Below are positions 24,896 to 58,045 of a stretch of DNA of 64,000 nucleotides, in pieces. Position 1 is the first letter of the stretch, and each line of letters opens with the position of its first letter. Origin of the DNA: Halostella salina. GTDB lineage: Archaea > Halobacteriota > Halobacteria > Halobacteriales > Natronoarchaeaceae. The notes under the pieces were generated by a model that ran no database searches, had not been told where the DNA came from, and was given only the letters and a program-made list of their open reading frames with translations. Position numbers and translations under genes: made by a program. Location: contig NZ_RCIH01000001.1 of assembly GCF_003675855.1 (NCBI RefSeq), positions 310,001-374,000 of the forward strand. Direction: 5' to 3'.

Positions 24896-24995
24896 GAAAG
24901 GGGCCGCGCGCTCGCCAGCCGAGGCGACGCAAGCACCGCAGGCCGACGGCCGAGGAGCGCAGCGAGCCGCAGGCGGCGAGCGCGCGGGGGCTTTC
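24896..24995. repeat. 100-nt GC-rich palindromic element
   Basis: The ends GAAAG (24896-24900) and CTTTC (24991-24995) pair. After a 5x5 internal loop, GCGCGCTCGCC (24906-24916) pairs perfectly with GGCGAGCGCGC (24975-24985). The 58-nt interior is GC-rich and itself partly self-complementary. It lies in the 354-bp gap between trm1 (minus) and the SWIM gene (plus), which contains no gene that I can support. Confidence 0.5.
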
Positions 24996-28452: not shown

Positions 28453-29034
28453 TCACCCCGGGCCGACCCCGTCGCCCGGGTCCCGCCGCCGCAGGTCGTC
28501 CCCCGCACGCGCCGCCAGCCGTGCCACGCGGAGCGGCTCGGGGCGGCCGCCCGCCGGCGTGAACGCGCGGACGACGCGGGCGGCCTCGTCGTCGTCGACG
28601 CCGACGCTCCGGACGAACACCGTATCCCCGTCCACCTCGACCTGCCGACGCGGCGGCAGCGCCTCGTACGCCGCCAGCCGGCGGTCCAGCGCGTCGCCGT
28701 CGAACGCCTCACGGAGCGACGGCTCCAGCCCGTCGCTGTCCTCGAACGTGACCGCGAGGGCGGGGCGCTCGGTCGCGGCGTGGACGCGCTCCAGGTCGAC
28801 GACGTTGTACCACGCCAGCGCGACGCCGGCCACCAGCACGTAGCGTACGTCCTCGCGGTCCAGCCGCTCCCAGAGGTCGACGGTCCCGGCGGTCGCGTCG
28901 CTCCCGCCCACGGTGCACGAAGAAAACGCGAACCCGTCGACGACGCGGGACGCCCGGACGACCGCGCCGGCCAGCGTGCTCCGGTCGCCGCGGTACGATT
29001 CGGCCACGCCGAGCGCCCGCGTTCCGGGTTTCAT
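28453..29034 (-). CDS. UPF0215/DUF99 family protein, endonuclease V-like
   Basis: 193 residues from the second of two consecutive ATGs (29034); the first adds one Met. [27 protein letters not shown] and [15 protein letters not shown] are typical of the archaeal DUF99 family, described as endonuclease V-like by fold. Activity has not been shown for this group as far as I know. The 5' end is unusual because the ATG directly adjoins a long palindrome that reaches back to the stop codon of the upstream gene. Confidence 0.85.
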
Positions 29035-29035
29035 C

Positions 29036-29117
29036 ATAGTGTTCGCTCTCGTCACGTATCGGTGGTCGCCGGTGTCGGAGCTGGCGACTACCGGTACACA
29101 GTGAGAGCGAACACTAT
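29036..29117. repeat. 82-nt two-stem palindrome filling a stop-to-start gap (element A)
   Basis: Outer stem ATAGTGTTCGCTCTC (29036-29050) with GAGAGCGAACACTAT (29103-29117), 15 perfect pairs; 5x5 internal loop; inner stem 29056-29070 with 29083-29097, 15 pairs including two G-T; 12-nt loop. On the minus strand it starts at the last base of the DUF5786 TGA codon and ends within the first ATG of the UPF0215 gene. The same design and terminal sequences occur at 57441-57521. Confidence 0.8.
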
Positions 29118-29302
29118 CAGCTCGCGTCGCTCTCCTTGATGTCCTTCAGTCGGTCGATCAGTTCGTCGCTCGACGCCCCGATCTCGAACTCGACATCGCC
29201 GTCGTGGTCGTTTGCCCCTGTCGCTACCCCGTCGTCATCGTCGATGTCGGCGTCGATGTTCTGGTTCTCTTGTTCCGATTCGTCGTAGCTCCCGAAACCC
29301 AT
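29117..29302 (-). CDS. small acidic DUF5786 protein
   Basis: 61 residues from ATG 29302 (MGFGSYDESEQENQNIDADI). The MGFGSYDESEQ start and the closing SSDELIDRLKDIKE match the haloarchaeal DUF5786 family of unknown function. Highly acidic, no cysteines, no membrane segment. A TATA-like run lies about 30-37 nt upstream. The stop codon is the first element of a long palindrome that links it to the UPF0215 gene. Confidence 0.8.
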   Translation of the reverse strand: MGFGSYDESEQENQNIDADIDDDDGVATGANDHDGDVEFEIGASSDELIDRLKDIKESDAS

Positions 29303-56331: not shown

Positions 56332-57396
56332 TCAGGCGTCGGCCAGCGGGAGCGCGACGTTGAACACGCTCCCCTGATTCCCGTTGTCCTCGACCCATAT
56401 CTCGCCGCCGTACCCCTCGACCAGCGTCCGTGCGAGATAGAGACCGAGCCCCGTCCCCGGGCTCTCCAGCCCCTTCTCGCCGCGCCCGAAGATCACCTCC
56501 TTCCGGTCGTCGGGCACCGACGGGCCGTTGTCCGCGACCGTCACGAGGGCGACGCCGTCGCGGACCGCGACCGCGACCGCGATCTCGGGGAGGTCGGTGT
56601 CGTTGTGGACGACCGCGTTCTGCAGGAGGTTGTGGAAGACGGATTCGAGCATGTCGTCCGCGCTGACCCGTACGTTCTGTCCGAGACCGTAGGCGGTGAT
56701 CGCGACGCGGTCGTGTTTCGCACGGACCGTCTCGACCGCCGACCCGACCACGTCGGTCACCGACACCGGCCGGCGCTCGGGACCGTCCTCGAGCATCGTG
56801 TTGGTGAGGTCCCGAGCGGTCGTCGTGAGTTCGATCGCCTCCGTCACCGACAGCAGGATGTCGTCGAGATGGTCCGCACCCTCGTCGTCGACGTGGTCCG
56901 CCAGCATCTCGGCCCGCCCGCGAACGATCTGCATCTCGTTGCGGAGGTCGTGGCGGACCACCTGGTTCAGCATCTCCAGCTTCTCCCGCTTTCGCTCCCG
57001 CTCCTCGCGCCGCCGCCGCTGCTCGGTGATGTCGCGGACGAACCCGCCGGTGCTGACCATCTCGCCGTCCTCGTAGATCGGCTCGCCGTAGGCCCACACC
57101 CACCGACCGTACTCCTCGTCGGGGTTGACGCGGTACTCCAGTTCCGTGGATTCCTCGTTAGCCATCTCCATCATCGCCTCCCGGACGCGCTCGCGGTCGT
57201 CCGGGTGGACGCCGTCGAGGAAGTTCGTCGGATCGTCGTACACGCGCTCTCGCGACAGTCCCCAGATGTCCTCGAAGGCGTCGCTGACGTACAGCGTCTC
57301 AGACCAGTCCGGGCCGGTCAGGTAGATGCAGTCGGGGCTACTCTGTCCGAGTTGGTCGAGCAGCTGTTTCGCCTCGACGGGGGCCAGTCCGTCCAT
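56332..57396 (-). CDS. PAS domain sensor histidine kinase
   Basis: 354 residues, no membrane segment, so a soluble kinase. A PAS domain (about 15-125, PDCIYLTGPDWSETLYVSDA; ELEYRVNPDEEYGRWVWAYG) is followed by a HisKA-type dimerisation helix with His149 in VVRHDLRNEMQIVRG, and an ATPase domain with N box FHNLLQNAVVHND, G1 box VADNGPSVP and GTGLGLYLARTL. It probably phosphorylates an unlinked response regulator. A long palindrome lies 45 nt upstream of its ATG. Confidence 0.92.
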   Translation of the reverse strand: MDGLAPVEAKQLLDQLGQSSPDCIYLTGPDWSETLYVSDAFEDIWGLSRERVYDDPTNFLDGVHPDDRERVREAMMEMANEESTELEYRVNPDEEYGRWVWAYGEPIYEDGEMVSTGGFVRDITEQRRRREERERKREKLEMLNQVVRHDLRNEMQIVRGRAEMLADHVDDEGADHLDDILLSVTEAIELTTTARDLTNTMLEDGPERRPVSVTDVVGSAVETVRAKHDRVAITAYGLGQNVRVSADDMLESVFHNLLQNAVVHNDTDLPEIAVAVAVRDGVALVTVADNGPSVPDDRKEVIFGRGEKGLESPGTGLGLYLARTLVEGYGGEIWVEDNGNQGSVFNVALPLADA

Positions 57397-57440
57397 TTTC
57401 TAGACAGTATGACCATCGCTACAAAAACCCGATGGCCCTC

Positions 57441-57521
57441 ATAGTGTTTATTCTCACTGTTTACCGGTGCTCGCCGTCACTGTACAGGCGAGCACCGGTA
57501 ATTGGCGAGAATAAACACTAT
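57441..57521. repeat. 81-nt two-stem palindrome at a stop codon (element B)
   Basis: Outer stem ATAGTGTTTATTCTC (57441-57455) with GAGAATAAACACTAT (57507-57521), 15 perfect pairs; 5x5 internal loop; inner stem 57461-57475 with 57487-57501, 15 perfect pairs; 11-nt loop. It starts at the last base of the TGA stop of the HVO_2922-type gene and precedes the kinase ATG by 44 nt. Compared with the element at 29036, three outer-stem pairs changed in a compensatory way. Confidence 0.82.
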
Positions 57522-58045
57522 CACTCCGGGACCAGTTCCACCTCGCCGCCGGGTGCGTTTGCCTGCACGCTCCGGAGCCCCTGCTCGGCGTTCCGCCTCG
57601 AGGAGTAGCCCTGCCCGCCGTCGGCGATGACGTTGCCGTTGTCGTGGCGGAGCCGCCAGCGCCAGTCCCCCGCCCGGTCGCGGTACAGTTCGAACCGCGC
57701 CTTCGACTCCTCGACGGTCGGCTGTTCGTCGGCGAACGGGTCCGCCGGAAGCGCATCCGCCGGCTCGCGGTCGGTCTGTGCGTCGGCCGTCCCCTCGGCG
57801 CGCTCGGCGAGGTCGACCCCCTCGACCGCCCGGTCGACGTCCGGCGGCGATTCACGCTCGTCGCTCCCGACGGCGTCCTCGACCGCGGCCGCGACCGTTT
57901 CCGCGTCGACCCGCAACACGCCGTCGACGCCCGGGGCCGAGAGGTCCGTCGTCACCGTCCCGTCCCCCGCCGAGGCCAGTTCGAGTTCGTTCTCGTCGAC
58001 TTCGACCTCAAGCGTCGCCGAGACGCTGACCGTGTTCTCACCCAT
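57521..58045 (-). CDS. HVO_2922/DUF1508 family protein
   Basis: 174 residues from ATG 58045. The C-terminal about 60 residues (ESKARFELYRDRAGDWRWRL, RHDNGNVIADGGQGYSSRR) are a YegP/DUF1508 unit of the haloarchaeal HVO_2922 type, a small beta-rich fold of unknown function. The N-terminal part (SVSATLEVEVDENELELAS) is acidic. A TATA-like GGTTAACC (58070-58077) lies 25-32 nt upstream. The next 266 bp (58046-58311) hold no supportable gene. Confidence 0.85.
   Translation of the reverse strand: MGENTVSVSATLEVEVDENELELASAGDGTVTTDLSAPGVDGVLRVDAETVAAAVEDAVGSDERESPPDVDRAVEGVDLAERAEGTADAQTDREPADALPADPFADEQPTVEESKARFELYRDRAGDWRWRLRHDNGNVIADGGQGYSSRRNAEQGLRSVQANAPGGEVELVPE

Follow-up and report, generated by a model that had tools for sequence, protein, structure and literature searches.

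The prokaryotic MITEs RUP, Correia/NEMIS and ERIC (PMC2229807, PMC10969869) are short, dispersed, gene-less elements with inverted terminal repeats, TA ends and a target duplication that are moved in trans. They resemble a family of haloarchaeal hairpins, probably also moved in trans, of which two members lie in the stretch of DNA analyzed here, a window of 64,000 nt from Halostella salina. Unlike those MITEs, however, the hairpin family is a single palindrome over its whole length, is fixed in size at 79–82 nt and moderate in GC content, duplicates TGA, prefers stop codons, has arms that covary by clade, and comes with no parent insertion sequence that we could find. Within the haloarchaea, the small mobile repeats SMR-A and SMR-B were described in Haloquadratum walsbyi, one of which, the SMR-B element HqIRS41, is 80 bp long (PMC3119063). 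The SMRs are likewise short, with inverted ends unrelated to known transposons and no known mobilizing enzyme; they are reported to leave the target unduplicated and to have other mobile elements as their insertion sites (PMC3119063), whereas the hairpin family duplicates TGA and sits at the stops of ordinary genes, and this separation from HqIRS40-43 and HqIRS55 is drawn from their published descriptions.

Three further groups invite comparison. The REP/BIME elements moved by RAYT transposases (PMC2817692, PMC3733652) are also palindromic, extragenic, mobile and present in many copies, but REPs are 20–40 bp long, carry GTAG or CGTC tags and depend on a Y1 transposase, whereas the hairpins measure about 80 bp, bear no tag, duplicate TGA and are carried by seven genomes in which PF01797 was not detected. 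The Rickettsia palindromic elements (RPEs; PMC10969869, PMC2229807) are palindromic repeats of 100–150 bp whose insertion is, as here, compatible with gene function; RPEs nevertheless insert in frame inside genes, while the hairpins shun gene interiors and occupy the stop codon. Finally, the PATEs (PMC3119063) share a haloarchaeal origin, palindromic ends and the lack of a transposase gene, but derive from IS605-type elements and have neither inverted terminal repeats nor duplications, both of which the hairpin family possesses. A search of the open-access literature, with subscription journals and supplementary tables outside its reach, returned no description of a haloarchaeal palindrome that targets TGA or stop codons.

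The hairpins form a real, widespread, stop-codon-seeking MITE-like family. We put the probability at roughly 0.85 that each is a non-autonomous, gene-less mobile element of haloarchaea, palindromic and about 80 bp long. The family amounts to mobile DNA present in roughly half the haloarchaeal genera that were sampled, and it illustrates a way for a selfish element to enter a compact genome, in that the stop codon it enters is duplicated and the protein is left intact. It also makes target choice testable: can transposition sense the ends of genes?

Element B, one of the two window copies, and its surroundings comprise the following features.

57441..57521, minus strand: element B, a palindromic mobile element of 81 nt (fold; family model, 95.9 bits; empty site in sister species G002)
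57442-57520, minus strand: inserted core of element B, TA...TA, 79 bp (empty site in G002)
57521..57523, minus strand: TGA that stops the upstream gene on the minus strand, the first copy of the 3-bp target duplication (sequence; gene call)
57439..57441, minus strand: second TGA copy of the target duplication, read as TCA on the plus strand (sequence; single TGA at the empty site of G002)
57521..58045, minus strand: host gene, entered at its stop codon and encoding a hypothetical protein (good coding score; relatives in 4 of 4 other genomes of the genus)
56332..57396, minus strand: next downstream gene in the same direction, predicted from its own sequence to be PAS/histidine-kinase-like (open reading frame list, coding score)

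Read directly, positions 57441-57521 form a near-perfect palindrome of 15 pairs, a 5x5 loop, 15 pairs and an 11-nt tip (15 + 5 + 15 + 11 + 15 + 5 + 15 = 81 nt), exactly the plan put forward in the original prediction, with the termini ATAGTGTT...AACACTAT. As single-stranded DNA the two strands fold at -31.9 and -33.9 kcal/mol, against about -7.9 for shuffled sequence (z about -11 and -12; 0 of 200 shuffles as good). The first base of the hairpin on the minus strand is the A of the TGA at 57521-57523, so the prediction that the element starts at a minus-strand stop codon holds as well. Its sister, element A, lies some distance away in the same window.

29036..29117, plus strand: element A, the second copy, 82 nt (family model, 84.9 bits; empty sites in G002 and G004)
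29037-29116, plus strand: inserted core of element A (empty sites in G002 and G004)
29117..29119, minus strand: TGA stop codon of the gene at 29117-29302 and first of the two TGA triplets that flank element A (sequence; gene call; empty-site comparison)
29034..29036, minus strand: second TGA at element A; its last base doubles as the first base of the ATG (29034-29032) with which the next gene ancestrally started (comparison with the empty TGATG of G002 and G004)

On the minus strand each of the two hairpins begins with the A of the TGA that stops a gene with a good coding score. The compensatory change reported for outer-stem positions 9-11 is present as described, with TAT opposite ATA in element B and CGC opposite GCG at 29036. 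The further statements that both copies follow one plan and that their inner stems differ throughout while pairing completely need qualification: element A is 82 nt long with a 12-nt tip, although the remaining layout matches, and differences between the inner stems are confined to several positions, with two wobble pairs in that of element A. Elements A and B head the list of the window's inverted repeats whose arms are separated by no more than 200 nt, and they are the only matches that the family model returns there up to E = 1. A separate inverted repeat at 24896-24995, with 30-nt arms that are 77% complementary and 40 nt apart, falls outside the family.

The match between elements A and B exceeds chance, because the same genome holds many more copies. 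An exact search with the 8-base end recovered further hairpins of identical plan, 11 same-plan copies from the Halostella genome were aligned by hand, and a first covariance model built from these 11 located the family at about 28 places in the 3.7-Mb draft, two of them occupied by identical copies. A second model, built from 62 copies, detected the family in 126 of 293 Halobacteriales genomes, representing 48 of 87 genera, with nearly all copies 79–82 nt long; in this survey a single genome could contribute no more than 15 copies to the count. A wider draw from the phylum produced no match outside the order Halobacteriales and doubles as a specificity control, and viral contigs and phages contained no match to the element or to the patterns tried. 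Halomicrobium katesii carries about 80 copies, many of them identical at unrelated sites and many intergenic. A second subfamily, of the ATACGGACGGTTGTAGGCGTTTACCC... type, coexists with the main one in this species (L166, L167 and others). At another locus (L175, 1988-2068) the internal loop is replaced by GGTGC/GCACC to give a fully paired variant that has TGA as one flank and TAA as its other. One H. katesii copy (L165, about 2001) is broken after ...GCAACTACGA by GAGGGTGTCATAGAACTGTTC, which resembles the end of an insertion sequence; judged from these letters, another mobile element may have inserted into the hairpin. On plasmid pHH126 of Haloarcula hispanica N601, an annotated CPBP protease gene has a family member at its stop codon (L291, 1501-1588); the host species is genetically tractable, which makes this copy handy for experiments.

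Comparisons of filled and empty sites show a dispersed, recently mobile family that inserts at TGA with a 3-bp repeat. Very often this TGA is the stop codon of a gene, and the host protein is then left unchanged, since the duplication restores the stop. H. katesii and H. mukohataei are 97–98% identical around shared sites, and one locus that is filled in the former (L149) and empty in the latter (L159) reads GCCGAG TGA GCGTC without the element and GCCGAG TGA (TACGG...CCGTA) TGA GCGTC with it. Sister species G002 lacks element B and reads GTCCCGGAG TGA GGGCG at the end of this gene; the target of the element was the stop codon ...GAG|TGA, and the host protein terminates in ...GPEVELVPE in the window and in ...AGGEVELVPE in G002. 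Element A is missing from both G002 and G004, in which the upstream stop overlaps the next start as TGATG. In the filled allele the first gene stops at one of the two TGAs, while the ATG of the second gene takes its A from the other; the duplication of TGA has therefore regenerated the stop–start overlap. Across the empty sites, a core of about 79 bp was inserted with a 3-bp duplication that is almost always TGA, and the intact direct repeats are TGA (TCA on the other strand) or, rarely, TAA. The elements are oriented about equally with respect to the TGA (30:26).

These junctions bear on two other types of movement. An IS200/IS605-type element or REP handled by a Y1 (HUH) transposase would cut 3' of TGA and carry a right end ...TGA of its own, so that no true duplication need have occurred; the empty site would look identical, a hairpin is present, and Y1 transposases and PATEs are common in haloarchaea (PMC3119063). 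A strand-specific enzyme would, however, fix the orientation of the element relative to TGA, at odds with the 30:26 count, and PF01797 was undetected in the carriers G002, G003, G004, G005, G035, G039 and G040. A strand-specific Y1 enzyme is thus unlikely to be the mover, and we hold the whole Y1 account improbable. An attC-like site of an integron or of another tyrosine-recombinase system is the least probable of the accounts considered, and very much so. Sites of the attC type are structured, poorly conserved hairpins at the ends of gene cassettes, which the family resembles in keeping its structure while its sequence varies and in its position at stop codons. Here, by contrast, nothing but the hairpin moves, and it does so with a 3-bp duplication, and the copies lie among ordinary chromosomal genes with no recurrent integrase gene seen beside them.

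The covariation that first drew attention to the pair of elements remains strong with 62 copies. In an alignment of these copies made from sequence only, standard pairs occupy 86.8% of cells, compared with 72.0 +- 0.6 after shuffling, and cells with double changes number 283 against 107 +- 9, a count reached in 0 of 500 shuffles, although kinship among the copies inflates such counts. The signal collapses when the partner is slid by one column. The outer arms vary by clade (TAGTGTTTGCTCTC, TAGGGACTGTTGTA, TACGGTTTATTGTA and others), and their partners match. That pairing is maintained, as was originally proposed, is therefore true of the family, but does not extend to maintenance at a given site: where two species share an occupied site, their copies have diverged without compensation (L072/L092, L060/L067 and L094/L065), and nothing was seen among shared copies to preserve inserted hairpins. 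Covariation on its own is no proof of an RNA or single-stranded hairpin, because two inverted ends served by one enzyme yield the same pattern. The matching of the arms is kept by the spread of copies with matched arms, both arms being the ends of a mobile element, and the family serves as a caution that strong covariation in a prokaryotic hairpin need not denote a conserved RNA, since the inverted ends of mobile DNA can produce it.

The same data weigh on the proposal that the hairpin is an RNA element of the host, positioned after the stop to stabilize or terminate the mRNA 3' end or to affect translation termination, with its pairing under selection. Strong covariation is what such an element would display, as are copies directly after stop codons and their enrichment at tight convergent gene pairs (22% vs 11%). 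Yet the copies common to two species decay uncompensated, the hairpin is missing from the same genes in sister species, both orientations are found and many H. katesii copies are intergenic, while Rfam 15 offered no family, only generic miRNA-hairpin matches far below the gathering scores. We accordingly regard a host RNA function as very improbable, and a conserved cis-acting RNA was rejected on the failure of pairing to be maintained at the orthologous sites listed above. Selection to hold the internal loop unpaired was likewise rejected, pairing in the 5x5 loop being at chance level (0.40 vs 0.43 shuffled), which gives no sign of selection on the loop as such. Across loci L144-L203 of H. 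katesii and H. mukohataei, the tip can face either way with respect to the asymmetric internal loop, reading TCTACTCCGTGGCGA in some copies and the reverse complement, TCGCCACGGAGTAGA, in others, and this flipped-looking inner part suggests recombination or hairpin processing between the arms.

The tie to stop codons noted for the window copies proved to be general. Within the own genus, 30 of 34 copies fall exactly on a stop codon, as do 29 of 38 from other genera and 33 of 64 from H. katesii (52–88%); 13.5, 10 and 9.1%, respectively, were expected under a null in which every TGA outside coding sequence is equally open and GC content is handled separately (p 1e-17 to 1e-22). The counts cover copies whose direct repeat is intact, all of them collected at family-bearing loci, and genes were called with a simple codon-score caller whose codon models were retrained for each group. 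A check independent of this caller came from the RefSeq annotation of plasmid pHmuk01, on which 7 of 12 copies end on the exact last base of a CDS.

pHmuk01, exact-stop copies at RefSeq CDS ends: L293 at 4681 and 21104; L294 at 9004 and 37714; L296 at 37704; L297 at 2421 and 8167

How much of this bias reflects insertion and how much survival is a question within the mobile-element reading. Were insertion to occur at any TGA, with only gene-sparing events remaining, one would expect what is in fact observed, namely that no copy lies inside a called gene, though about 70% of TGAs do, and that stops with a co-directional gene within 30 nt are avoided (3% vs 18%). Such avoidance of tight co-directional junctions, together with the preference for convergent pairs, implies that selection also acts. 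Survival alone nonetheless seems less probable than not, though a serious candidate, for GC-matched intergenic TGAs predict 7.7 stop insertions where 91 were observed, and TGAs within 60 nt after a stop outnumber the stop TGAs themselves (209 vs 143), yet few matches lie just downstream and most fall on the stop. The immediate context is weakly biased, with C before and G after (C-TGA-G); neither sequence context nor GC content explains the stop bias, and both were set aside as its source. We infer that the bias combines the loss of insertions inside genes and tight operons with an extra preference for stops, about 12-fold per site over GC-matched intergenic TGAs, to which active targeting or selection may give rise. 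At or near the same end of related genes in different genomes, different subfamily members were observed in the pairs L040/L152, L103/L145, L155/L128 and L041/L101. Recurrent matches at the same gene in distant genera are few, roughly as copy numbers predict, and look like chance.

It is enticing, if doubtful, to go further and suppose both that insertion is actively steered to stops and that the hairpin is recognized by its shape rather than its sequence. Under this joint and rather improbable proposal, the steering agent might be, for example, a transposase complex responsive to the termination of translation, to the 3' ends of mRNAs or to a protein bound there. The strict length of 79–82 nt and the conserved inner arms exceed what a simple pair of ends requires, and it may be the folded hairpin that is recognized. 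If steering were true, it would represent a new way for the mobile DNA of archaea to pick harmless target sites.

For the MITE-like element itself, the mechanism we favor is more conventional. A transposase supplied in trans would recognize two equivalent ends, each composed of an outer arm of about 15 bp, a 5-bp spacer and an inner arm of about 15 bp, would make cuts staggered by 3 bp in a CTNAG-like target and would insert the element. The ends would co-evolve with the transposase, and copies changed in one arm would either be mobilized less or be corrected by arm-to-arm copying in an extruded hairpin, either of which could generate the compensatory pattern. At about 80 bp the element has no room for an open reading frame, and its 15-bp outer arms stand as terminal inverted repeats. 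Against this account stands the failure to identify a parent element or a mobilizing enzyme. A search of three Halomicrobium genomes by end pattern yielded no autonomous element with the same ends, and the unpaired end-pattern matches inspected were variant or degraded copies. No gene recurs beside the copies, whose neighbors are ordinary chromosomal genes. The own-genome draft shows no DDE_Tnp_1 gene despite its two identical hairpin copies, though drafts often lose insertion sequence copies, and 30 DDE_Tnp_1 loci checked for inverted ends and 3-bp repeats gave nothing similar to the hairpin family. Members of the IS1031 group of the IS5 family typically enter TNA and duplicate 3 bp, but the loci checked yielded no parent of this type. 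In genome G253, a DDE_Tnp_1 insertion sequence (L219, 1442-2384) with inverted ends GACGGCTCTATTGA is flanked by a 3-bp TCA duplication; it uses the same type of target as the hairpin family, and its ends are unrelated.
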